Positions 41,891 through 51,753 of a DNA stretch of 64,000 nt are shown piece by piece. The first letter of the stretch is position 1. Each line of letters begins with the position of its first letter. Below the pieces are notes generated by a model. The model made no database searches. It was not told the DNA's origin and saw only the letters and a list, made by a program, of their open reading frames with translations. A program made the translations under genes and the position numbers. Origin of the DNA: Pluralibacter sp. UBA7423 (GTDB lineage Bacteria; Pseudomonadota; Gammaproteobacteria; Enterobacterales; Enterobacteriaceae); assembly GCA_002470465.1 (NCBI GenBank), contig DKMD01000040.1:1-64000 (forward strand). Direction: 5' to 3'.

Positions 41891-42131
41891 ATCAATAACC
41901 TTTATAATTTTTTTGGGTAAGTGGCCTGAAACAAAATTTGACGAGGTACAAAAGAAAAAACACCAGGAGATATCGGAGGATACTGCAGATGATGGGAATT
42001 GCTTTTAGGGTAACTTCAGTAAATTTTCACGTTCAAACCAGACCATCATTAACTCATGAATATTGTTTTCCGGCAAGCCCCGTTATAAAAAGAATTGTAA
42101 ATAACAGGATTACGCGTTGTCATTGACGATA
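41891..42131. other. AT-rich leader region of the YmcF-like gene
   Basis: No gene can be supported here. The minus strand carries pyrimidine-rich stretches (GTTTTTTCTTTTG) and is likely the 5' leader and promoter of the YmcF-like gene, possibly a cold-responsive leader (inference). Confidence 0.4.
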
Positions 42132-42160
42132 AGCAGTAAGCATTTCTTACACTTACTGCT
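42132..42160. terminator. Hairpin after the PRD regulator
   Basis: A perfect nine-pair stem AGCAGTAAG/CTTACTGCT with an eleven-base loop lies 16 bases after the end of the regulator gene (minus strand). No T run, so strength is uncertain. Confidence 0.5.
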
Positions 42161-42175
42161 CAGCATAAATAGCCA

Positions 42176-44086
42176 TTAAAAGCGGCTCACGCACTCCATC
42201 GCCACCGTTTTAAATTCTCTGAAGTTCTTGCAGCTGCACAGCCTCGCCATCGCCCGCTCCCGCAGGAAGGTGACGAAAATATCGTAGATCGCCATCGCCT
42301 CTTCGTATTCGCTTTTGCTGATCGCCAGCAGGAAAATCACATGCGCAGTTTCATCGCCCCAGGCGATTCCCTGTGGCGCAAGCACGGTGTAGACCACGGT
42401 CTTCTTCGCCAGCAGCCCCAGGGCGTGCGGCAGTGCAATACCGTCGCCGAGCATGGTGCTGACAATGGCCTCACGCTCCACTACCGATGCGACAAATTCG
42501 TTGTCAACAAACCCTTCATCGCTCAGTTGCTTACACAGCCCGGCGAACAGCGTCTGCTGATCGATAGGCTCGTTGATAATGCGGAAATGGCGGGCGTCGA
42601 AAAACTTCTCCAGCATCCACGGACGGGTGCGGTCCACCAGCACCAGCTTGCCGATTTGTTCCAGCTGATACTCCGTCGGGAACGGCGACATCACTACCAC
42701 CGGCTTGTCTTTATCCGTGATACGCACCGTTGAAACAACAAAATCTTCGCTGATGCTTTCGCGCTGTTCGTAGTCGCGCTGGGTGATGGTTTCGGTCATT
42801 TCGAGCTGCGGATATTTGCGCTGTAGCACCGCCTCAATCATGCGCACCATCGCGTTTCCGGCGTCGCACACCAGCAGCACACGCGGCTGACGCTGGTAGC
42901 CGATGTTGTAATGACGCTCCAGCCCCACGCCAATGTGCAGCACCAGAAAACCAATTTCGTTTTCGCTGATGGTCCAGGGCGTGTATTTGCTCCAGCCCGA
43001 CACCGCAGCGAGAGTCATGTCCCAGGCCATCGGGTAGTGCTGTTTGATGTTATCGAGCAGCGGGTTGGGGATCATTATCTGGTAGCGCACACGGGTGATC
43101 ATGGTTTTGATATGCGTCAGCAGGTCTGCGTGCAGCTGCTCATCGCTGAGCAGGTTGTAGTTATAGTGGCTGTTGATGTACTGGAGAATGTAGTTCACCA
43201 GCGCTTCGTCATCGTCGGCGTTGATCTGGCTCGGCGCGATATCCTGAACCTGACGTGCTGCAATGTGCACCCGAAGCCAGTTTTCTTCCGAAGCCGCCAG
43301 GGTTTTGCCCGCCAACTTTTGAATCGCGGCCGCAAGATCGCGAGCAGCATGGCGCACGTTCTCTTCCACATCATCGGCGGTAAATTCCGGCAGCGGATAC
43401 CCTTCACTGACGCGGCGCACCGCCACCGCGCAGTAAAGACGCACGAACAGCTCGCCTTCGTCCGTCAAACGAATGTGCCAACGGCTGAAGACCTCCTGCA
43501 GGACCGCCGTCAGTTGCTCCGGCACGCCAGCGTTCAGCGCTTCCTGAGTCAACAGCGGGTTGGCGCTGTCCTGCTGGGCCAGCTGCCAGAGCAGGTCGGT
43601 AAGGCAGGCGCGAATGGCCATCTCGCTGCCGAAAAGCTTCACGCCGTGGCGCGGACGGGTTTCCAGCGTCAGCTGATAGCGCGCCAGCCACTCGCGCACC
43701 TCAGCCATATCCCCCTGAAGCGTGGCGCGACTGACAAACCATTCATCCGCCAGATCTTCAAGCTTGAGCGAAAAGGCCGACGTCAGAAATCGCACCATCA
43801 GATAGTGAACGCGCTCAGTGCCGGTGCGTGGAATGCGCAATGCGCGCGGGCGGGAATCCTGCAAGGACTGGAACAGTGCCGGGTCGTCAACGCGCAGCTG
43901 ATAGCCGTTGCCCCGACTCAGCACGAACTGCGCGCCGTGCTGAACCAGCAGCGCATTGAGTGCGGTGATATCTGCCCGAACGGTTCGCGTGGAAACAGAA
44001 AGCCGCCGGGCGAGTTCGTCCTGCGGCAGCGTTTCGTTTTGCAGCATGTCAAAAAGCTGCGCTAAGCGTTGATTCGGGAATCGCAC
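42176..44086 (-). CDS. BglG/MtlR-type regulator with two PRDs, IIB- and IIA-like domains
   Basis: A 636-residue PTS-controlled transcription activator. In order: an Mga/DeoR-like helix-turn-helix (about 5-65: PQDELARRLSVSTRTVRADITAL), a second helix-turn-helix (about 95-150), PRD1 and PRD2 (about 185-395) with conserved histidines, a IIB-like domain with Cys407 (LLVCDAGNAM), and a IIA (mannitol/fructose type) domain with His554 (ALPHALG). This is the layout of MtlR, LicR and ManR, which are turned on and off by PTS phosphorylation. It is the last gene of the ten-gene operon and most likely controls it. The sensed sugar is unknown. Confidence 0.9.
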   Translation of the reverse strand: MRFPNQRLAQLFDMLQNETLPQDELARRLSVSTRTVRADITALNALLVQHGAQFVLSRGNGYQLRVDDPALFQSLQDSRPRALRIPRTGTERVHYLMVRFLTSAFSLKLEDLADEWFVSRATLQGDMAEVREWLARYQLTLETRPRHGVKLFGSEMAIRACLTDLLWQLAQQDSANPLLTQEALNAGVPEQLTAVLQEVFSRWHIRLTDEGELFVRLYCAVAVRRVSEGYPLPEFTADDVEENVRHAARDLAAAIQKLAGKTLAASEENWLRVHIAARQVQDIAPSQINADDDEALVNYILQYINSHYNYNLLSDEQLHADLLTHIKTMITRVRYQIMIPNPLLDNIKQHYPMAWDMTLAAVSGWSKYTPWTISENEIGFLVLHIGVGLERHYNIGYQRQPRVLLVCDAGNAMVRMIEAVLQRKYPQLEMTETITQRDYEQRESISEDFVVSTVRITDKDKPVVVMSPFPTEYQLEQIGKLVLVDRTRPWMLEKFFDARHFRIINEPIDQQTLFAGLCKQLSDEGFVDNEFVASVVEREAIVSTMLGDGIALPHALGLLAKKTVVYTVLAPQGIAWGDETAHVIFLLAISKSEYEEAMAIYDIFVTFLRERAMARLCSCKNFREFKTVAMECVSRF

Positions 44087-44137
44087 TCCGGTGTCCTCAT
44101 GTTCAGAACGGGCGCTAAGCGCCCGCGGTGTTTCTTA

Positions 44138-45280
44138 TTATTTTGGTGATATCACCATTTGCGACGGGCTGCCCACGGCGGTATAGCCCGGCTCAAAGGT
44201 CAGCTTGCCGCTGTGCGGTGCGACTTTAAAGCGAGTAATATTGTCACTGCGCTGGTTCATCACATACAGCCACTGCCCCTCAGGGTCGAGCGTAACGGTG
44301 CGCGGGTAATCGCCGCGGGTCCAGACATCATCCTGATGAACGAGCTCGCCGTCGGCAGATACCGTAAAGTGTGCGACGCTGTTATGCAAACGATTGGCGA
44401 CATAGAGCTGCTTTCCATCCTGGCTGAGCGCCAGTCCGGCGGCAAAACTGGTGCCTTTGTACTCTTTCGGCAGCGCAGAAACCGTTTTGCCTTCCGTCAA
44501 CAGACCTTTGTCTTTGTCGAGATGGTAATGCGTCAGCGTTGAAGCTTCCTCATTAATTAACCATAGCCCGTCCCCCTTCGGCGTGAAGACAAAATGACGC
44601 GGCCCTGCGCCTTTTGAAGAGGCATTAATAAACGGCGGCGTGTTTGGCGTCAGCTTGCCGGTCGCGTCATCCAGCTGATACTGATAGATACGATCGAGCC
44701 CCAGATCGGTGGAGAAGACGTATTTTCCCTGAGGATCGGCAGAAATCATATGCGCATGCGGCCCGTTATGATCGCTGATGGCAAAGCTGCCTTCCGCTGC
44801 CGCTCCCGGTTTGCCCGCGCCCGCCGGGCCTTCATCCTGATGCGTGTCCGAGGCTTCACTCAGGCTACCGTCTTCCTTCACCGGCAATACCGCAATCGTG
44901 CCGCTGACGTAGTTTGCCACCAGAAGATGACGACCGTTCGGCGTCAGCGACAGATAAACCGGGCCCGCACCGCCGGAGGAGACCTGATTGAGCTCGGTGA
45001 GCGAGCCGTCTGCGCCTATTTTCAGCGCCTGCACCACACCTTTTTCGGCTTCGCTTGCGACATACAGCGTTTTGCCGTCGTGCGATACCGTCAGCTGCGC
45101 GGCGTTAGGCAGTGAACTGACCAGCGTTTTATCGTGCAAATCGCCGGTCTTCGGATCGATCGTAAAGCGGTAAAGCCCTTCGCCGTTCGGATTATAAGTC
45201 CCCACCCAGGCGTACTGGGCGTGAGCGGCGGTAGCCAGCAGAGAGAATGAAGCGACAAGCAGGTGACGTGCAGACAGCAT
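44138..45280 (-). CDS. Exported lactonase, 7-bladed beta-propeller family
   Basis: A lactonase-family protein (6-phosphogluconolactonase/YbhE-like propeller). From the ATG at 45280 it has 380 residues, including a signal peptide (MLSARHLLVASFSLLATAAHAQ), so it acts in the periplasm, unlike cytoplasmic Pgl. Repeated blade motifs such as HDGKTLYVASEAEKG, PNGRHLLVANYVSGTI and QDGKQLYVANRLHNS are spaced along the protein; the conserved DHNGPHAHMISADPQGKYVFSTDLGLDR segment (about 155-185) is present. The longer start at 45418 reads through the repeat and is rejected. It fits a step that opens a sugar-acid lactone before uptake (inference). Confidence 0.88.
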   Translation of the reverse strand: MLSARHLLVASFSLLATAAHAQYAWVGTYNPNGEGLYRFTIDPKTGDLHDKTLVSSLPNAAQLTVSHDGKTLYVASEAEKGVVQALKIGADGSLTELNQVSSGGAGPVYLSLTPNGRHLLVANYVSGTIAVLPVKEDGSLSEASDTHQDEGPAGAGKPGAAAEGSFAISDHNGPHAHMISADPQGKYVFSTDLGLDRIYQYQLDDATGKLTPNTPPFINASSKGAGPRHFVFTPKGDGLWLINEEASTLTHYHLDKDKGLLTEGKTVSALPKEYKGTSFAAGLALSQDGKQLYVANRLHNSVAHFTVSADGELVHQDDVWTRGDYPRTVTLDPEGQWLYVMNQRSDNITRFKVAPHSGKLTFEPGYTAVGSPSQMVISPK

Positions 45281-45320
45281 GATGACTCCTTGACGGTGAT
45301 TGAGCAGAAGTGAGGTCTGA

Positions 45321-45464
45321 TGCCCTCTCCCCGGCCCTCTCCCACAGGGAGAGGGAGAAGAGAATGAGCAGCAGTCCAGTTCTTTCCCTTTGCAGGGGAA
45401 GAGAAAAAATACGAGCACAATCCAGTTCCCTCTCCCTGAGGGAGAGGGTTAGGGAGAGGGGGGA
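45321..45464. repeat. Palindromic CCCTCTCCC/GGGAGAGGG repeat, copy A
   Basis: Two CCCTCTCCC-to-GGGAGAGGG palindromes face each other, separated by an AT-richer stretch. The same design recurs at 57030-57113 and 62340-62450. This copy lies inside the ten-gene operon, between the aldolase and lactonase genes. Confidence 0.8.
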
Positions 45465-45468
45465 AAAA

Positions 45469-46209
45469 TCACCCCACCAGCTTTTTGGTCATCTCCAGCA
45501 GCGTGCGCACGTCTTCCGGGCGCGTGTTGCCGCTTTCTTTGTCGATGATCGAGCTGTAGATGTGCGGGATCACTTTCTTCACGCCCGCATCGAGGGCGAT
45601 CTTCAGGATTTCGCTGTAGTTTTCCAGATCGATGCCGCCGGTTGGCTCCAGCCAGAAATCATGGCGTGCACAGGCTTCGGCAACAATCTGATACTCGTCG
45701 CGGCACTTCAGGCCACCCATCGGGAAGTATTTGATGGAGCTGCAGCCCATGTCTTTCAGCAGAGCGATGGCGGTATCAACCGGCACGATGCCGTCCTTTT
45801 CCTGACTGCTCAGCGGGCCGGTGGAGATTTTGACCATTCCCGGCGTACCGGTTGGTGACACCAGGCCGTTCACCACGGTCTCTTTCTGCCCGAGCAGCGC
45901 GCGGCTGGTTGCTACGCCGGTAAACACCTGATTTACGTGCTGCGGCTGAACTTCACGGGCGATCAGGCTCACCATGTCAGACTGGTTCGGATCGCCCGCA
46001 CCAAGACCGACGGACAGCGCATTATCGATAAGCTTCGCGTATTCGCGCATGTCGGCAACCGCGCTCGGTACGTCCGGATAGTTTTTGGAGAGCACGCCCA
46101 CCAGCACATGACCTTCCGCCGCTTCGTACACGTCGCTGGCGTTGCTTTTGGAACCTGCCAGCACGTTCAGGCAGACGCGGTCACGGTAAAAATTAGGGGT
46201 CAGTTTCAT
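45469..46209 (-). CDS. KDGP aldolase family protein (DgaF-like)
   Basis: A 246-residue TIM-barrel protein of the EF_0839/DgaF family, related to 2-dehydro-3-deoxy-phosphogluconate aldolase, which splits KDGP into pyruvate and glyceraldehyde-3-phosphate. Features: NFYRDRVCLNVLAGSKSNASDVYEAAEGHVLVGVLSK at the start, SIKYFPMGGLKCRDEY (about 152-168) with the probable Schiff-base lysine, and FWLEPTGGIDLENY (about 180-193). It overlaps the upstream PLP-enzyme gene by four bases, so they are co-translated. The same enzyme closes the glucosaminate pathway in Salmonella. Confidence 0.9.
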   Translation of the reverse strand: MKLTPNFYRDRVCLNVLAGSKSNASDVYEAAEGHVLVGVLSKNYPDVPSAVADMREYAKLIDNALSVGLGAGDPNQSDMVSLIAREVQPQHVNQVFTGVATSRALLGQKETVVNGLVSPTGTPGMVKISTGPLSSQEKDGIVPVDTAIALLKDMGCSSIKYFPMGGLKCRDEYQIVAEACARHDFWLEPTGGIDLENYSEILKIALDAGVKKVIPHIYSSIIDKESGNTRPEDVRTLLEMTKKLVG

Positions 46210-47324
46210 GCGTTGTTCTCCTTGTTCAGCACTTCCGCAATGCGGCGTGCCACGATCTCCAGCTGCTGCGCGTTCACGCTGCGAACGTCAGCTTCGATAA
46301 TGCCTTCGTTAGCCTTGTAGCCGCGGAAGTAGATGGCGTATTCACCTTTTTTCAGCTCGGCCACGAGGTCGCCGGTCGCGACTTTGGTGACGGCTTCGTC
46401 GAATTTAATCTCAGTGCGCGCGATATCACGGCCCGCCGCATCCCACACCACACGGGAAGACACGCCGTTCAGGGCGTTCATGGCGTTGATGAATGGCGTC
46501 ATTTTTTCCACCATCTCTGCACCGCTCTCTTTCTCGGCGGTCAGGTAGTGTTCGATAGCGCAGGTCAGGCCGAGAATGCCCTCTTTACCGACCTTCATCG
46601 CGCGGCCAATGCCCGCGGTCTGACGTTTCACCCATTCAACATACTGGGTTTTGCCGATGACCAGGCCGCTGGTTGGCCCTTCGATGGCTTTCGCGCCGCT
46701 ATAGATGACCAGGTCCGCGCCATAACGGTAGTAGCACTGCAAATCTTCTTCGGCAGCCGCATCCACAATCAGCGGCAGATTGTGCTTACGCGCCACCACC
46801 ACCGCCTGTTCTACGCTCAGCATGCTTTTCTGCACGCAGTGGTGAGATTTGATGTAAAGAATCGCCGCGGTACGAGGCGTGATTGCCGCCGCCAGCTGAT
46901 CGGCAGAGCATTCGTTGGCGTAGCCCGCTTCCACCATTTTGCCGCCACCGAGCGCGATCATGGTGCTGACCGGCGCGCCGAAGTTAACGTTGTGGCCGCG
47001 TGGCAGGACGATTTCGTTATTCTCAATCGGGGTGCTGTGCAGGTTTTCCAGCAGCCAGTCGCTGTCTTTGACCAGTACGCCCGCGACGGACTGAGCGATA
47101 CCCGCAGAAGCGCACGACACTACCGTCGCGCCTTCCACTTCCAGCAGCTTCGCGATGTATTCACCGGTTTTGTTGACCAGGTCTTTCATCTCGAAGTAGT
47201 GATTCATGCCGGTCATGACCGCGTCCACCACTTCCGGGCGTGGCGTTGACACGCCGAGTGCTGTCATGCGGCCAGAGGCGTTAATCACTTGTTTAAGCTG
47301 GTATTTCTCATAAATCGAAGGCAT
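46206..47324 (-). CDS. PLP-dependent ammonia-lyase (DgaE/SelA-like)
   Basis: A 372-residue PLP enzyme of the SelA-like/DgaE group. The PLP lysine is Lys212 in VIYSGAKAIEGPTSG, with an upstream aspartate in LPLIVDAAAEEDL (about 184-194). Related DgaE converts D-glucosaminate-6-phosphate to 2-keto-3-deoxy-6-phosphogluconate and ammonia, the substrate of the next gene product. It overlaps both neighbours by a few bases (amidohydrolase upstream, aldolase downstream). The exact substrate here is not proved by sequence. Confidence 0.9.
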   Translation of the reverse strand: MPSIYEKYQLKQVINASGRMTALGVSTPRPEVVDAVMTGMNHYFEMKDLVNKTGEYIAKLLEVEGATVVSCASAGIAQSVAGVLVKDSDWLLENLHSTPIENNEIVLPRGHNVNFGAPVSTMIALGGGKMVEAGYANECSADQLAAAITPRTAAILYIKSHHCVQKSMLSVEQAVVVARKHNLPLIVDAAAEEDLQCYYRYGADLVIYSGAKAIEGPTSGLVIGKTQYVEWVKRQTAGIGRAMKVGKEGILGLTCAIEHYLTAEKESGAEMVEKMTPFINAMNALNGVSSRVVWDAAGRDIARTEIKFDEAVTKVATGDLVAELKKGEYAIYFRGYKANEGIIEADVRSVNAQQLEIVARRIAEVLNKENNA

Positions 47325-48441
47325 GTTCTGCGCTCCCTTGTTCGGTCATATAGCCCTTGCCTGCACGAATTGCGGCGAGCGGCACCAGATCCAGGTCCGC
47401 CTGCAGGGCGTTGTTTTCTGCATCCACCAGCGTTACCGGCTGGCGTTTCAGGGTGAAAATGGTCAGATCGGCATCGAAGCCAACGGCAAGCCTGCCTTTG
47501 CGCTTGAGGCGAATCGCCTCGGCGGCATTAGCGGTCACGCAGTTGATGACCTGCGGCAGCGACATGCCGATAGCAAGGAACTTCGCCATCACGCGCGCCA
47601 GTGAATGCACCGGGCCGTTGATGCGGTTACGGCAGTAGATATCCGAGCTGATGGTATGCGGCAGAATGCCCATCGCAATCGCCTGCTTCGCTACGTCGAA
47701 GCTGAAGCTTGCCGTACCGTGGCCCACGTCGAGCTTAATGCCGCGCTTCAGCGCGCCGGAAACGGAGGCGCGCAGTTCGCCAGATGGCGTCAGAATGCGG
47801 TTCGGTTTGCCGTTGTAGCAGTGGGTGATGATGTCGCCGGAGGTCAGCAGCTCAGTAATTTCATCGAGGTTCGGCGGGTTGTTGCCGATATGCACCATCA
47901 GCGGCAGATCGCCGTTGGCTTTCTGAATTTCCTTCGCCTTTTCCAGAGGCGTGATGCCGTTTTCGCCCACCACGCTGCTGCTCATGCGTGCCTTCAGGCC
48001 AACAATAAAATCCGGATGACGTTTGATGGCAGAAGCCGCAGCCTCTGCATCAATGTTCGCCATGTTCGCCAGCTCGTTCTGCGCAATCAGCCCGACGCGG
48101 GAGATATTGAGCAGGGCGTAGACATCCGTTCCGCACTTACGGGTGATGTCGTAGAACGTGTCAACGTCATCCGCGCCGGTGCTGCCCGCATCAATCACCG
48201 TCGTCACGCCGGTGGCGACGCCCACGCTGTCCGGCTCGTCGTTGTAAATCGGCGATTTCGGGTAGCAGTGAACGTGTAAATCAATCCAGCCTGCGCTGAC
48301 ATAGTGCTCGCCGCCCAGAGAGACGACTTTCGTCGCCTCGCCGTTAATGTCGCCCAGGGCTGCAATTTTGCCGTCTTTAATGGCGATATCCGTTACCGTA
48401 TCGTCAACCAGGCGTGCGCCCTTAAGCAGTAAATCAAACAT
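47308..48441 (-). CDS. Amidohydrolase/deacetylase-family metallohydrolase
   Basis: A 377-residue amidohydrolase-superfamily enzyme. The metal-binding motif DLHVH is at His56/His58 (IDLHVHCYP); a further metal residue region is VGLKARMSSSVVGENG (about 148-165), with MVHIGNNPP (about 182-190), DVGHGTASFSFDVA and the C-terminal VTANAAEAIRLKRKGRLAVGFDADLTIF. Such enzymes remove acyl or amide groups; here it may deacylate an N-acyl or N-carbamoyl sugar acid before the PLP step (inference). It overlaps the PLP-enzyme gene by 17 bases. Confidence 0.88.
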   Translation of the reverse strand: MFDLLLKGARLVDDTVTDIAIKDGKIAALGDINGEATKVVSLGGEHYVSAGWIDLHVHCYPKSPIYNDEPDSVGVATGVTTVIDAGSTGADDVDTFYDITRKCGTDVYALLNISRVGLIAQNELANMANIDAEAAASAIKRHPDFIVGLKARMSSSVVGENGITPLEKAKEIQKANGDLPLMVHIGNNPPNLDEITELLTSGDIITHCYNGKPNRILTPSGELRASVSGALKRGIKLDVGHGTASFSFDVAKQAIAMGILPHTISSDIYCRNRINGPVHSLARVMAKFLAIGMSLPQVINCVTANAAEAIRLKRKGRLAVGFDADLTIFTLKRQPVTLVDAENNALQADLDLVPLAAIRAGKGYMTEQGSAEHAFDL

Positions 48442-48459
48442 CGCTTTCTCCTTGCAGAC

Positions 48460-49101
48460 TTAAATCGCCACCGGGAAGATGGAACCGAGAATCATCGCGC
48501 CGAGGATGGCGCCGCCGGTGATCGGCTTCTGCCAGATGTAAAACAGTAATGCGCCAATCAGCGAGCCAATCCCGATAGGAATGGAAGCGGTCATTGCGCT
48601 CAGGATAATCAACGGCCCGAGGAAGCGACCGGAAGCGTTACCTGCGCCCATCATGACGTCCGCCCCGTAGGTCGAGTTGCTCTGGTTAACGGTAAACTTA
48701 CGCGCCAGAATAATGACGTAGCCAATCGCGAGGCCGATAATCAGGCCGGTTGCCAGAGAAGCGGCAAAGTTCGCCACCGGGAAGACGATGCCTGCGCCGA
48801 GCAGCAGCGCCGGAACGCCGAGGCCCACGCCGGTCTGAATCGCCCCGCCGATATCAAGAATACCGACCAGTGAACCTTCAATAATGCGGGCAAACAGAAA
48901 GCTCGCGCCGAAGGCCGCCACCGCGCCGTAGACGCCGGTGTCGATCCCGGATTTCAGCATCGCCACGAAGGCCACTTCGTTAAACGCGCCGATACCATAC
49001 AGGTAGTACATGTGTGTCCCGGCGAAAACGCCGGAAGAGAGCAGGCCGACAAAGATCGGGAATGACCAGTCCGCGTACCAAAAACCTTTATTCTGTTCCA
49101 T
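48460..49101 (-). CDS. DUF4310 membrane protein (EF_0833-type)
   Basis: A 213-residue integral membrane protein with about six hydrophobic segments, very rich in Gly and Ala, with short loops. It belongs to the DUF4310 family, which is found next to DUF4311, DUF4312 and SFCGS genes in a conserved gene neighbourhood (Enterococcus EF_0829-EF_0839 and Aeromonas). Together with the DUF4311 protein it is a likely membrane component of an uncharacterised transporter. It lies 11 bases after the DUF4311 gene on the minus strand. No known transporter motif is visible. Confidence 0.87.
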   Translation of the reverse strand: MEQNKGFWYADWSFPIFVGLLSSGVFAGTHMYYLYGIGAFNEVAFVAMLKSGIDTGVYGAVAAFGASFLFARIIEGSLVGILDIGGAIQTGVGLGVPALLLGAGIVFPVANFAASLATGLIIGLAIGYVIILARKFTVNQSNSTYGADVMMGAGNASGRFLGPLIILSAMTASIPIGIGSLIGALLFYIWQKPITGGAILGAMILGSIFPVAI

Positions 49102-49112
49102 GCGTTATCCCC

Positions 49113-49889
49113 TTATTTGCCGCTTAACGCGTTATGCAGCAGATCCAGCCAGTTCGGCACCGTCATGTGGAAGGATTCGATCATCTTCATGTCGAAGCCA
49201 CGGAAGAAGGCGCTCAGCACGAACAGGGCGATAATGGCCGCCATCATGATTTTGGTTACGCGGTTCCAGCCCGCATCTTCTACGCCCTTACCGATCAGGA
49301 TGCCCAGCACCAGACCCGGTACGGCGTTGCCCATAATCAGCTGCGCTGCGCCGCCGAAGATGGTCGCCCAGAAGCCGGATTTCTTACCGGCATCAATCGC
49401 CGCCAGCCAGAAAATCACTGGCATGATGATGTTCACCAGCAGGTTAGCCGCAGGCACCAGCACTTTAACCGCCGTGACCTGTAACGCTTCCGGTACTGCC
49501 GACGCCGTGGAGTTGAGGAACGCTACAACGATCATGCCGATCAGGCCGCAGGCAATCGCCATTTTCTTCGGATCGTGAAGAGTTTCCGCCACGTTGCGGT
49601 TTTTCAGCATCAGTGCTGAAGCGCCCCAGTGCGGGATGATGCGGTGGTCAACGTCCTGAGTGAAGGCACCCGCCGCCACGGAAGATGCCCAGGCGTTGAA
49701 GAAGAAGCCCAGACCAAAGGAGAAGTGAGAAGCCGGATCCCCTTCGCAGGAGTTCAGCTCGCCCAACGTACGAAAAGCACCCATCCCTTGTGTGGTGGGC
49801 GCATGAAACATGCGTGCAGCTCCGGCGCCCACGCCGACGCCAACCAGGCCGCCGATGATGAGCGATTTAATAAGAATTATCAGGAACAT
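49113..49889 (-). CDS. DUF4311 membrane protein (EF_0832-type)
   Basis: A 258-residue membrane protein beginning FLIILIKSLIIGGLVGVGVGAGAARMFHAPTTQGMGAFRTLGELNSCEGDPASHFSFGLGFF. About seven hydrophobic segments are seen. The polar, conserved-looking stretch ELNSCEGDPASHFSFG (about 43-58) and the FTQDVDHRIIPHWGAS stretch could form a substrate or ion path. Family DUF4311, function unknown; it pairs with DUF4310 in the same neighbourhood in other bacteria. Spacing to the flanking genes is 19 and 11 bases. Confidence 0.87.
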   Translation of the reverse strand: MFLIILIKSLIIGGLVGVGVGAGAARMFHAPTTQGMGAFRTLGELNSCEGDPASHFSFGLGFFFNAWASSVAAGAFTQDVDHRIIPHWGASALMLKNRNVAETLHDPKKMAIACGLIGMIVVAFLNSTASAVPEALQVTAVKVLVPAANLLVNIIMPVIFWLAAIDAGKKSGFWATIFGGAAQLIMGNAVPGLVLGILIGKGVEDAGWNRVTKIMMAAIIALFVLSAFFRGFDMKMIESFHMTVPNWLDLLHNALSGK

Positions 49890-49908
49890 GAGTCTGTCCT
49901 TTTCATGG

Positions 49909-50208
49909 TTATGTTGTCGTGACGAAATCCACTTTGTCGAGGTTTAACGCCGTCACGTTGACGGTGACGTCCAGCTCCACGCTGAACATGCGTCGCTCCC
50001 GGCGCAGAAAGAAAAACAAAAATGCTTCTTTCCGGACCGTTTCCTGCGCATGAACAACCGCCACATCCTGTGGTTCAATGCGCAGTAAAATGTGCGGTGA
50101 GGATTTCATCACCGTACCTTGTACCTGGCTCAGCGCATCGGCAAAGGCCCGTGCTTTGGCCTCGCCTTTGCCCTTCACCCTCACCGTGGTGGTGAACTGT
50201 TCTTTCAT
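49909..50208 (-). CDS. DUF4312 family cytoplasmic protein (EF_0831-type)
   Basis: A 99-residue soluble protein (MKEQFTTTVRVKGKGEAKARAFADALSQVQGTVMKSSPHILLRIEPQDV...). It has a ferredoxin-like alternating helix-strand look with no catalytic motif I recognise. Family DUF4312, always beside SFCGS and DUF4311 genes. It lies two bases after the SFCGS stop codon. A cytoplasmic coupling subunit, comparable to PTS IIB, is a possibility (inference). Confidence 0.85.
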   Translation of the reverse strand: MKEQFTTTVRVKGKGEAKARAFADALSQVQGTVMKSSPHILLRIEPQDVAVVHAQETVRKEAFLFFFLRRERRMFSVELDVTVNVTALNLDKVDFVTTT

Positions 50209-50210
50209 GC

Positions 50211-50573
50211 TTATGCGCCGTATTTCTTCTGCCAGGCCTGCACTAAACGCTCGCCCAGCTCTTCTTTATCCATGAAGCCGAAGCCCAGCACGTTCGCGCC
50301 TTCGTTGATCGCGGTAACGCCTTCATCCACGGAGCGCATGCCGTACTTCGCTTTGTAACCGTGCTTGGTCTGAGCGGTAATCGCACCCGCGCCGCCGCTG
50401 CCGCAGAAGGAGATGCCGAAGGTCGCGTTTTCCGCCTTCATCACGTCACCAAGCTTCATATCTGCTGCCACGCCCGGTACAACAACCGCACGGCCACCGG
50501 CTTTTTCCACGCCCGCTGCCACTTTCTGACCTTTGCCCAGACGGTCACCAATCACGACGGTAATTTGTTCCAT
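50211..50573 (-). CDS. SFCGS-family glycine-rich protein (EF_0830-type)
   Basis: A 120-residue protein beginning MEQITVVIGDRLGKGQKVAAG. The family signature SFCGSGGAGAITAQTKHGYKAKYGMRSVDEGVTAINEGANVLGFGFMD lies from residue 55, with Cys57 as the single striking residue. The start at 50573 is preferred because AAGGAGCAAAAC precedes it; the ATG at 50654 would overlap the PRD gene. The cysteine after a beta-strand recalls the phospho-cysteine loop of PTS IIB proteins, suggesting phosphoryl transfer (inference, untested). Confidence 0.86.
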   Translation of the reverse strand: MEQITVVIGDRLGKGQKVAAGVEKAGGRAVVVPGVAADMKLGDVMKAENATFGISFCGSGGAGAITAQTKHGYKAKYGMRSVDEGVTAINEGANVLGFGFMDKEELGERLVQAWQKKYGA

Positions 50574-50583
50574 GTTTTGCTCC

Positions 50584-50913
50584 TTAAAGGTTTTCTTTCG
50601 CCACTTCGAAGTGCACCGACAGCAGCCAGGCTTCTTCATCCGGAAGATTGCCAAACTGCGCCACTACTTCGCGGGCAAGGTTCATTGAATCGGCTGAAAT
50701 TTCTTCAAACAGGCTGGCTTCCACTTCGGGCAGCGGCTCGCCGGTAATTGACCGGTGTGCCATCGCACGGACGTGAGACGTCAGCATTTGTTCCTGGACG
50801 GCATTCGGGATGATGTCGTGACCCTTGAGCAGGCTGTACACCTGGCCCAGCATGCGAGTTGCAAGCTCTTCGGTCTGACTCCCGACGTCGGTAATAACTG
50901 CTCCGTTGTTCAC
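50584..50913 (-). CDS. Stand-alone PRD-domain protein (EF_0829-type)
   Basis: A 109-residue protein consisting of a single PTS regulation domain, without DNA- or RNA-binding parts. The two PRD histidine regions are SHVRAMAHR (His47, His53) and LLSVHFEVAKEN (His101). It heads the ten-gene operon. A stand-alone PRD could be a phosphorylation-sensitive partner of the SFCGS protein or of the large PRD regulator (inference). Matches the EF_0829-type first gene of the conserved neighbourhood. Confidence 0.85.
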   Translation of the reverse strand: MNNGAVITDVGSQTEELATRMLGQVYSLLKGHDIIPNAVQEQMLTSHVRAMAHRSITGEPLPEVEASLFEEISADSMNLAREVVAQFGNLPDEEAWLLSVHFEVAKENL

Positions 50914-50983
50914 TCTTCTGACCCCGTTTATTGCGTCTGAGTCAAAAACTACCGTGGCAGCTGTCGGGTTTGTAGCGAGTTGT

Positions 50984-51003
50984 TTTCCACTTCGAAGTGG
51001 AAA
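50984..51003. promoter_or_regulatory. Perfect 20-base palindrome upstream of the PRD operon
   Basis: TTTCCACTTCGAAGTGGAAA is a perfect inverted repeat 71-90 bases upstream of the first operon gene. It is a strong candidate operator for the operon regulator. A partial copy CCACTTCGAAGTG lies inside the 3' end of the PRD gene at 50602-50614. Confidence 0.55.
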
Positions 51004-51066
51004 GGCGAGCGGCAGGAGTGATCTGTCCCACAGAATTTGGCCGATCGGGGATGAAATGCTGGATAA

Positions 51067-51084
51067 GCGTGATGAAGGTCACGA
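51067..51084. promoter_or_regulatory. Candidate CRP site upstream of the PRD operon
   Basis: CGTGA-N6-TCACG has the CRP half-site spacing (GTGA-N6-TCAC). It is about 155 bases upstream of the operon start, which suits catabolite control of a sugar pathway. Confidence 0.5.
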
Positions 51085-51234
51085 GAAAAAACTGAATTAG
51101 CCGCGGAAGGAAGCAGCAATATTTTGCGAGCCTTCACGTAAAACTGTGACGTCGATAAGCTTTTACGATGACGATACGGGAGAATAACGGCGGGTGCCTG
51201 AGGTTTTTTGTCTGAAGCAGGAGACAAAAATCAG

Positions 51235-51272
51235 AAAGCCCCAGCCTGACTCTGCATCAGGAATGGGGCTTT
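51235..51272 (-). terminator. cybC terminator
   Basis: A long stem AAAGCCCCA/TGGGGCTTT with an inner CCTGA/TCAGG stem is followed on the minus strand by a T-rich stretch (TGATTTTTG). It lies about 95 bases after cybC and separates it from the PRD operon. Confidence 0.85.
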
Positions 51273-51366
51273 ATCTGTTACGTCGGACAACGAGAATTCG
51301 CGGGCGAAGGACCTCCGAATTTCTTCGTCAGCCTTCCGCTGGCCGCGTTGTGCTCAGGCGCCCTTC

Positions 51367-51753
51367 TTAACGGTATTTCTTATGGTAAGTATTGCGGGTT
51401 CCGGCCAGATCGAGAGCCACACCCTGCGCTTCCTTGATTTTGCCTTCGTTCGCGAGCTTCATCGCGCCATCAATCTGGCCGATCAGAATATCGAAGCCGT
51501 GGCGGAAATCTTTCATCTCCGCGCTGTCCGGCGCTTTATCTTCCAGCTTCGGTGGGGTCTGTTTCTGCGCATCCTGGGCCGCCGTACGCATTTTTGTCAG
51601 CGCCGCTTTCATTTCCGCGGCATCATCCGTTTTCTGCACCACTTTCAGGTTTTCAGACAGGGTGTCCATATCATCGCCGAGATCGGCAAAGGCAGGGGCG
51701 ATACCCAGCATCAGGGTAGAGGCTGCCAGCATAGCCAGAACTGTTTTACGCAT
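51367..51753 (-). CDS. cybC: Cytochrome b562
   Basis: Periplasmic four-helix-bundle cytochrome with a non-covalent heme b; physiological partner unknown. The 128 residues have a 22-residue signal peptide ([22 protein letters not shown]). The axial heme ligands are Met29 (mature Met7) and His124 (mature His102, in RNTYHKKYR). The internal motif [21 protein letters not shown] is as in E. coli. It is full length and intact; some E. coli strains carry only a truncated copy. It is adjacent to pmbA, as in E. coli. Confidence 0.97.

Follow-up and report, generated by a model that had tools for sequence, protein, structure and literature searches.

Which compound does an operon serve when its enzymes belong to recognizable families and its transporter-like genes carry no functional name? 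The question is raised by a ten-gene operon of Pluralibacter sp. UBA7423 (assembly GCA_002470465.1), which lies in the first 64,000 nucleotides of contig DKMD01000040.1, the whole stretch that was analysed and is called the window here. The operon may encode proteins that take up and degrade an N-acyl aldosaminic acid, with N-acetyl-D-glucosaminate (GlcNAc1A) as the likeliest candidate. The acid would be phosphorylated on uptake by a relay that runs from a solo PRD protein to the SFCGS protein. We offer this reading tentatively and give it somewhat less than an even chance. The cluster itself is known, without a function: it is the one covered by models TIGR03577-TIGR03583 (EF_0829-EF_0839; AHA_3910-AHA_3917). 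Six of the seven models are labelled as conserved hypothetical or by domain, and TIGR03583 is labelled as an amidohydrolase/deacetylase family only. A search of open-licence papers gave no account of what the DUF4310/4311/4312/SFCGS system does, nor did that literature yield the other findings described below: the RpiB fold, the relation to YhfU, the linkage to HPr-EI and the operator.

The gene set is real, and its order is conserved far beyond chance. In profile scans, genes 1-9, counted from the solo PRD gene, matched the TIGR models of Table 1, NF047796 and PF10282 above their curated cut-offs. When GTDB species genomes were scanned with an alignment of DUF4311, at least 498 stretches encoding a relative were found, and the best 80 were used for the locus counts. 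These loci come mostly from Gammaproteobacteria and include Chromobacterium and Iodobacter relatives and one Enterococcus. In 77 of these loci, the eight core genes, from the solo PRD gene to the aldolase gene, run in the same order on one strand. Two of the three exceptions are cut by a contig end (L033, L072), and the third, from Xenorhabdus (L087), has no detectable aldolase. A sequence-only reading of the window had placed ten genes on one strand, named each of them, predicted matches to TIGR03577-03582 and expected the transporter genes to co-occur with the enzymes across genomes; all of this was borne out, the strand being minus throughout. The tight spacing that it described, mostly below 20 bases, holds for genes 1-8 (gaps of 10, 2, 19, 11, 18, -17 and -4 bases). 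It does not hold for the lactonase, whose ATG at 45280 lies 188 bases past the aldolase, or for the regulator, 51 bases beyond the lactonase. The lactonase had also been counted as part of the core and is better described as optional, since it was matched in 29 of the 80 loci, some of which stop before its position. Judging by the record titles, all 29 are from Enterobacterales except one in a record titled Chryseobacterium sp. 18061 (L065), where the operon is 91-99% identical to that of the window and is probably contamination. The regulator lies downstream of the core in 61 loci and upstream of it in 14; in the other 5 it was not detected. Clustering of the open reading frames (ORFs) within 4.5 kb around the core in 82 loci gave no extra conserved gene among the 28 largest clusters besides presumed chromosomal neighbours. 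Taken as a whole, the earlier interpretation is partly supported.

In even draws that count the centre genome, SFCGS exceeded its cut-off in 7 of the 299 genomes drawn from the phylum. DUF4311 did so in 7 of 398 drawn from Bacillota, the phylum of Enterococcus viikkiensis. Five of six Bacillota loci (14-17 kb each) have the amidohydrolase, DgaE and aldolase genes, with the amidohydrolase gene relocated upstream. The remaining locus (L165:4407-8846) has the regulator, PRD, SFCGS, DUF4312, DUF4311 and DUF4310 genes and no adjacent enzymes, as far as the locus itself extends; its transporter may serve enzymes encoded elsewhere or another substrate. The solo PRD gene accompanies the SFCGS and membrane genes in 78 of the 80 loci, the other two being truncated by contig ends, and is present in five of the six Bacillota loci.

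The SFCGS protein has a fold of the RpiB/LacAB type, as found by structure comparison and profile-profile alignment (E about 1e-6). Its Cys57 aligns with the active-site Cys66 in the ICGTG loop of E. coli RpiB and does not vary among 37 representatives of SFCGS. The start at the ATG at 50573 makes this numbering, already used in the sequence-only reading, correct. The same reading had suggested that phosphate passes through the system as in a phosphotransferase system (PTS). SFCGS is not a PTS IIB by sequence or by fold, and a lactose IIB came no higher than rank 47 (E 0.014) in the Foldseek search. SFCGS also stays below the cut-offs of LacAB_rpiB in Pfam (18.2 bits vs 24.7) and RPI_actino in NCBIfam (20.8 vs 168.2). 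In RpiB, His99 opens the sugar ring and Arg133 and Arg137 bind phosphate, and an H99N mutant is named among the structure matches. In the alignment, read by eye, the His99 position is not conserved in SFCGS (N90 in the window), and the protein ends before Arg133. SFCGS thus shares the fold and the active-site cysteine loop with the RpiB/LacAB isomerases, but it differs from them in lacking the ring-opening histidine and the phosphate arginines and in adjoining a transporter set in the loci seen.

The solo PRD protein is the other soluble component with conserved candidate phospho-residues, judged by conservation: all 54 representatives have both H47 and H101. The protein passes TIGR03582. Profile scans matched it clearly to no family except PRD and found no DNA-binding domain. 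Against PF00874 the window protein scores 17.7 with a cut-off of 23 (E 0.0047), and its relative in L167 scores 23.0. Of the two membrane proteins, DUF4310 has an invariant H30 (29 of 29 representatives).

A parallel arrangement exists in E. coli, where yhfSTUVWXYZ encodes a solo PRD (YhfY), a DUF2620 protein (YhfU) and YhfT, taken as a membrane protein from its sequence. SFCGS and YhfU are homologous over 113 columns when a 118-row YhfU alignment is used (hhalign E 1.2e-5 to 1.7e-5, against 0.04 or higher for eight reversed or shuffled decoys). The single E. coli YhfU sequence showed no relation to SFCGS (E 0.19). The DUF2620 protein P0160 also matches the SFCGS profile (E 1e-5; 26.0 bits, just under the cut-off of 27.3). 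The YhfU cysteine is invariant (118/118). The first histidine is present in all 11 distinct yhf-type solo PRDs and the second in 8, and the solo PRD groups of both systems are homologous (E 3.3e-6). DUF2620 occurs in 11 of 398 Bacillota genomes, with YhfT near it in all 11 and a solo PRD in 10. The E. coli and Bacillota sets differ from the window's operon in having other enzymes and a single large YhfT with no detectable relation to DUF4310 or DUF4311. These comparisons suggest that the core common to both systems is a solo PRD with an RpiB-fold cysteine protein, and that the membrane parts differ. PRD-DUF2620-YhfT sets, to which the same relay idea could be applied, were seen in Bacillota at L142, L143 and L148-L158; those at L142 and L143 adjoin an amidase-like protein of ~370 amino acids (by eye).

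The link to PTS phosphate that the sequence-only reading had proposed finds support on two Bartonella plasmids. In both Bartonella sp. HY406 and HY761, a 671-amino-acid fusion of HPr and enzyme I (EI), with GLHARPA and TSHVAI motifs, lies directly behind the regulator of the operon. The sole EIIA_2 domain on either plasmid is in that regulator, and the gene table of the HY406 plasmid, which is incomplete, has no further annotated PTS gene outside the operon. Among the best 120 of 7986 clusters for the fusion and the best 120 of 1111 clusters for SFCGS, five HPr-EI clusters (671-700 amino acids) and five SFCGS clusters have longest contigs of equal size (58945, 120447, 274581, 995694 and 129115). 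The contig of 995694 is from Microvirga sp. W0021 in both searches. Judging by size, we take all five to be the same contigs, and the Bartonella case is known from the plasmid records. In the Bacillota genome of L167 (G459), genes for HPr and EI come after the operon and share its strand, and the genome has two more EI-like matches. An HPr-like gene, mostly an NPr-like neighbour, is near the operon in 14 of 94 loci. EI is present in all nine examined genomes that carry the transporter genes, which says little by itself because EI is common.

The enzymes suggest what could happen to an imported compound. Manual docking places the 6-phosphate of the Salmonella DgaE substrate near Arg301, Arg332 and Arg346, and His162/163 near the substrate (PMC9529869, in the portion available). 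By alignment, the counterparts in the window are R303, R334, R348 and H161/H162. The three arginines and H162 are kept in all 82 members of a DgaE set that includes the window, is limited to 355-385 amino acids and is mostly from Gammaproteobacteria; H161 is kept in 80. Five of five more distant Bacillota enzymes also keep the triad and both histidines. The carboxylate-binding Arg226 of Salmonella corresponds to K225 (K in 63 and R in 19 of the 82). This conservation supports, and does not prove, the earlier proposal that the substrate of DgaE is phosphorylated. The window's DgaE passes the subfamily model TIGR01437 (606.7 vs 385.3), and the aldolase passes the DgaF equivalog NF047796 (397 vs 300). 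The amidohydrolase passes the cog3964/TIGR03583 profile (565.9 vs 432.15) and has H56, H58, K150, H184, H207 and D267, presumably the metal ligands, which are kept in 83 of 83 sequences and in five of five distant Bacillota enzymes. Its close relative in the Protein Data Bank, 8wzy, was deposited as a dihydroorotase. No kinase is found among the eight core genes, so the phosphate must arrive with transport or from elsewhere. From the EF numbers, we take EF0838 to be the DgaE-type gene of E. faecalis. A transposon-sequencing table gives it as a selenium transferase (PMC7701990, in part), and a biofilm proteome assigns it to selenocompound metabolism (PMC11135667, in part), labels that we read as misannotation; a duplicated E. 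faecalis pair is named dgaE and dgaF in the accessible text of PMC7396535.

These elements can be assembled into a pathway. DUF4311 and DUF4310 would form the membrane channel. Phosphate would pass from phosphoenolpyruvate to EI, HPr, a histidine of the solo PRD and Cys57 of SFCGS, and from there to the sugar acid entering at DUF4311/4310. The solo PRD and SFCGS would together stand in for PTS IIA and IIB, and the product of import would be an N-acyl aldosaminate-6-phosphate. The lactonase, where present, may open a lactone outside the cytoplasm. The amidohydrolase would strip the acyl group from the (phosphorylated) acid. The last two steps are supported by the enzyme families and their active-site residues: DgaE would eliminate ammonia from the 6-phosphate to give 2-keto-3-deoxy-6-phosphogluconate (KDPG), and the aldolase would split KDPG into pyruvate and glyceraldehyde-3-phosphate. 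The PRD/IIA activator would read the state of the relay and act at a palindrome upstream of the operon.

Two known systems frame this proposal. The Salmonella dga operon (DgaABCDEF, the D-glucosaminate PTS) has DgaE/DgaF-type enzymes, and in 2013 Miller reportedly described its uptake by a mannose-family PTS. Its sequence of PTS uptake with phosphorylation, ammonia-lyase and KDPG aldolase is the same as that proposed here (PMC9529869, in the sections at hand). Unlike dga, the window has the DUF4310-4312/SFCGS/PRD permease, an extra amidohydrolase and a Mga/PRD/IIB-like/IIA regulator. The ong cluster of Pseudoalteromonas prydzensis, from the oxidative chitin pathway, follows the logic proposed for GlcNAc1A, in which deacetylation is followed by deamination and leads to KDPG. 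By its description in excerpts of PMC9537276, it is set apart by the D-aminoacylase-like OngB, the fold-type III pyridoxal phosphate (PLP) enzyme OngC, KdgK, an SSS transporter and phosphorylation as the last step. GlcNAc1A itself is a C1-oxidation product of chitin, and a different, non-phosphorylating route is known for it (PMC9537276 and PMC12017989, both in part). GlcNAc1A is the favoured substrate because DgaE/DgaF chemistry begins at D-glucosaminate-6-phosphate, an amidohydrolase has been added, and the lactonase suits an aldonolactone. The N-carbamoyl option of the sequence-only reading found no specific support.

A number of observations weigh against the relay. The main alternative keeps the pathway and makes DUF4310-4312 an ordinary secondary transporter, with HPr, EI and the PRDs used for gene regulation only and a kinase elsewhere acting on the substrate. 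No Pfam PTS family matches SFCGS, DUF4310, DUF4311 or DUF4312, and Pfam and NCBIfam scans found no EII homology in them, as would be expected of such a transporter. The activator carries a PRD, a IIA and a IIB-like cysteine segment, which are PTS targets, and EI and HPr could be needed for it alone. An EI gene lies in the stretch examined at 3 of 94 operon loci (L009, L109, L167) and in none of the other 91, which makes EI linkage the exception. Those 91 presumably rely on an EI encoded elsewhere, and our guess is that linkage marks hosts without a general PTS. The ong route to GlcNAc1A uses an SSS symporter and late phosphorylation (PMC9537276, in part), and a PfkB-type kinase lies near the E. 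faecalis operon. The arginines of DgaE suit early phosphorylation, yet the same triad in the more distant relative 8t7j may make it a family trait. A basic patch of the amidohydrolase (R/K271 and R273), considered as a phosphate site, looked conserved in the 83 sequences but is missing from five of five distant Bacillota enzymes and was dropped. Against this alternative, the eight core genes include no kinase, and the solo PRD, which has no DNA-binding domain, keeps company with SFCGS and the membrane genes in 78 of the 80 loci and in five of six in Bacillota (none was detected in L166), and with DUF2620 in 10 of 11. We regard the secondary transporter as rather unlikely. Observations on the remaining parts of the permease also count against the relay. 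DUF4312 has no conserved His or Cys in 45 representatives and was rejected as a phosphocarrier for want of a conserved His. The AlphaFold model of DUF4311 is poor (mean pLDDT confidence score 65.6), and a fold assignment was dropped as the best Foldseek E on this low-confidence model is 4.3. The idea that DUF4311 or DUF4310 matches a part of YhfT was also rejected, with E-values of 0.31 and 0.58 in hhalign.

SFCGS could instead be an enzyme, an RpiB-type isomerase or epimerase that uses Cys57 as a base on an open-chain sugar acid or phosphate. The retained fold and active-site cysteine loop would suit this role, and open-chain acids would not need the missing ring-opening histidine. SFCGS nevertheless stops before the region of the phosphate arginines of RpiB and stays with the transporter genes where no enzymes are adjacent (L165). 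Its relative YhfU belongs to a different pathway and is still found beside the membrane protein in 11 of 11 cases and a solo PRD in 10 of 11, and we regard an enzymatic role as improbable. The identity of the substrate is a separate matter. In place of GlcNAc1A, the operon could handle a different N-acyl compound, either an amino acid or a sugar acid, for example N-acetylgalactosaminate, N-acetylmannosaminate or an N-acyl-D-amino acid. The DgaE of the window falls under the cut-off of the D-glucosaminate-6-phosphate lyase equivalog (373.2 vs 600), and relatives of the amidohydrolase are said to act on acetyl-(R)-mandelate and N-acetyl-D-serine, as Ornelas reportedly described in 2013. The idea that the operon follows chitin-active lytic polysaccharide monooxygenases (LPMOs) was rejected. 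Among the same 217 genomes of the order, that of the window included, DUF4311 exceeded its cut-off in 25 and LPMO_10 in 54, with an overlap of 9; LPMO genes thus accompany the operon in 9 of 25 genomes vs 45 of 192 without it (Fisher p = 0.22). Without the listed members of one genus, unlisted ones staying in, the counts are 2 of 18 vs 44 of 191 (p = 0.37). The genome of the window has no LPMO gene by the LPMO_10 profile. The aldolase, which passes the DgaF equivalog, favours the D-gluco or D-manno series. We consider a substrate other than GlcNAc1A a real possibility, though less likely than not.

The palindrome proposed as operator sits about 80 bases ahead of the PRD start. In 79 of 92 loci, the 350 bp before the PRD gene contain a match to TTTCCASTTNNAASTGGAAA with no more than 2 mismatches, vs 0 of 1840 shuffles. 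The 92 loci include the window and exclude its duplicate, loci with less than 150 bp upstream and those whose PRD was missed by tblastn (most Bacillota); near-duplicates, among them L061/L102 (both from one genome) and L009/L109, are kept. There are 4 mismatches on both Bartonella plasmids, 4 to 6 in the Chromobacterium relatives (L012-L014) and 8 in Enterococcus (L008, L061, L102). The palindrome is the only exact match in the genome of the window. A search for further regulon genes gave one exact and two 2-mismatch matches genome-wide vs a control of two per strand, and none is claimed. The operator core CACTTCGAAGTG recurs at 50602-50613 in the terminal part of the PRD gene; there it codes for the conserved H101-F-E-V and is probably a codon coincidence. 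A CRP-like site with at most 2 mismatches was found in the 250 bp before the PRD gene in 40 of 92 loci vs 181 of 1840 shuffles, which makes the evidence for CRP weaker than that for the operator. A sigma-70 promoter scan of 50560-51400 found none. In the regulator, Cys407 lies within VCDAGNAM and His554 within ALPHAL.

Table 1. Genes of the operon and sites upstream of it, in window coordinates
Feature	Coordinates	Strand	Basis
HTH/Mga/PRD/IIB-like/IIA transcriptional activator	42176..44086	-	Pfam/NCBIfam profiles; IIB-like part read by eye
Exported 7-bladed beta-propeller lactonase, PF10282, optional	44138..45280	-	Profile; signal-peptide-like N-terminus by eye
KDGP (KDPG) aldolase, DgaF type	45469..46209	-	PF07071, TIGR03581, NF047796
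DgaE-type PLP ammonia-lyase	46206..47324	-	TIGR01437; Arg triad
Amidohydrolase/deacetylase, proposed N-acyl-D-aldosaminate(-6-phosphate) deacylase	47308..48441	-	TIGR03583; metal-ligand positions
DUF4310 membrane protein, proposed permease part	48460..49101	-	TIGR03579; invariant H30
DUF4311 membrane protein, proposed permease part	49113..49889	-	TIGR03580
DUF4312 small soluble protein	49909..50208	-	TIGR03578
SFCGS protein, RpiB/LacAB fold, proposed cysteine carrier (IIB stand-in)	50211..50573	-	PF14272/TIGR03577
Solo PRD protein, proposed phosphohistidine carrier (IIA stand-in)	50584..50913	-	TIGR03582; invariant H47, H101
Perfect palindrome of 20 bp, TTTCCACTTCGAAGTGGAAA, proposed operator for the regulator encoded in the operon	50984..51003	.	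Conserved upstream motif
Second CRP-like site TGTGGGACAGATCACT	51017..51032	.	Scan with TGTGAN6TCACA
CRP-like site CGTGACCTTCATCACG	51068..51083	.	2 mismatches to TGTGAN6TCACA

The operon is flanked by cybC-like and pmbA-like genes upstream and nrdG-like and nrdD-like genes downstream, as compared with annotated Klebsiella, and is read as chromosomal because of these neighbours. The genome measures 4.39 Mb. Among the loci compared, the nearest relative is that of Enterobacter sp. CC120223-11 (L049), with 94-99% protein identity. The gap at 45281-45468 before the lactonase contains repeated GGGAGAGGG-type inverted elements that by eye resemble an enterobacterial interspersed repeat, and an Rfam scan of 42000-51400 found nothing at the gathering threshold. 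Individual loci show further variation. In Aeromonas caviae KAM479 (L011:10948-15267), most of DUF4310, the amidohydrolase and DgaE is gone, through an internal deletion or an assembly fault. In Serratia rubidaea NCTC12971 (L091), the DgaE, aldolase, lactonase and regulator matches are split, suggesting frameshifts or sequencing errors. In E. faecalis (L008:15548-18283), a PTS EIIC gene, a 99-amino-acid ORF and MupG (6-phospho-N-acetylmuramidase) lie between DUF4310 and the amidohydrolase, an insert for which E. viikkiensis (L061) has no space. A Cof-type HAD phosphatase follows or adjoins the aldolase in L162, L166 and L167 by Pfam and in L164 by length and position. In about a dozen loci, genes that we take to be RapZ-, NPr- and sometimes PtsN-like lie downstream and point towards the operon (L024, L025, L033, L040, L045-L047, L055 and others).

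Six families without a function (SFCGS, DUF4310, DUF4311, DUF4312, DUF2620 and YhfT) become candidate parts of two parallel systems with a common core. Both could represent a class of PTS-type permease in which the role of IIA falls to a solo PRD and that of IIB to an RpiB-fold cysteine protein (SFCGS or YhfU/DUF2620), and the membrane proteins (DUF4310/4311 or YhfT) are unrelated to any EIIC, the class importing N-acetylated aldosaminic acids as 6-phosphates in the present case; at this breadth we hold the idea to be speculative and on the unlikely side. PRDs are known as regulatory targets. If a PRD histidine does transfer phosphate to an RpiB-fold cysteine, then the fold of an isomerase was co-opted to carry phosphate, and PRDs act as relay proteins. 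In Aeromonas, where LPMOs are present and matches to OngB and OngC are distant or absent, with other deacetylases and deaminases left open (PMC11653859, in the part available), the operon is a candidate route for the use of GlcNAc1A.

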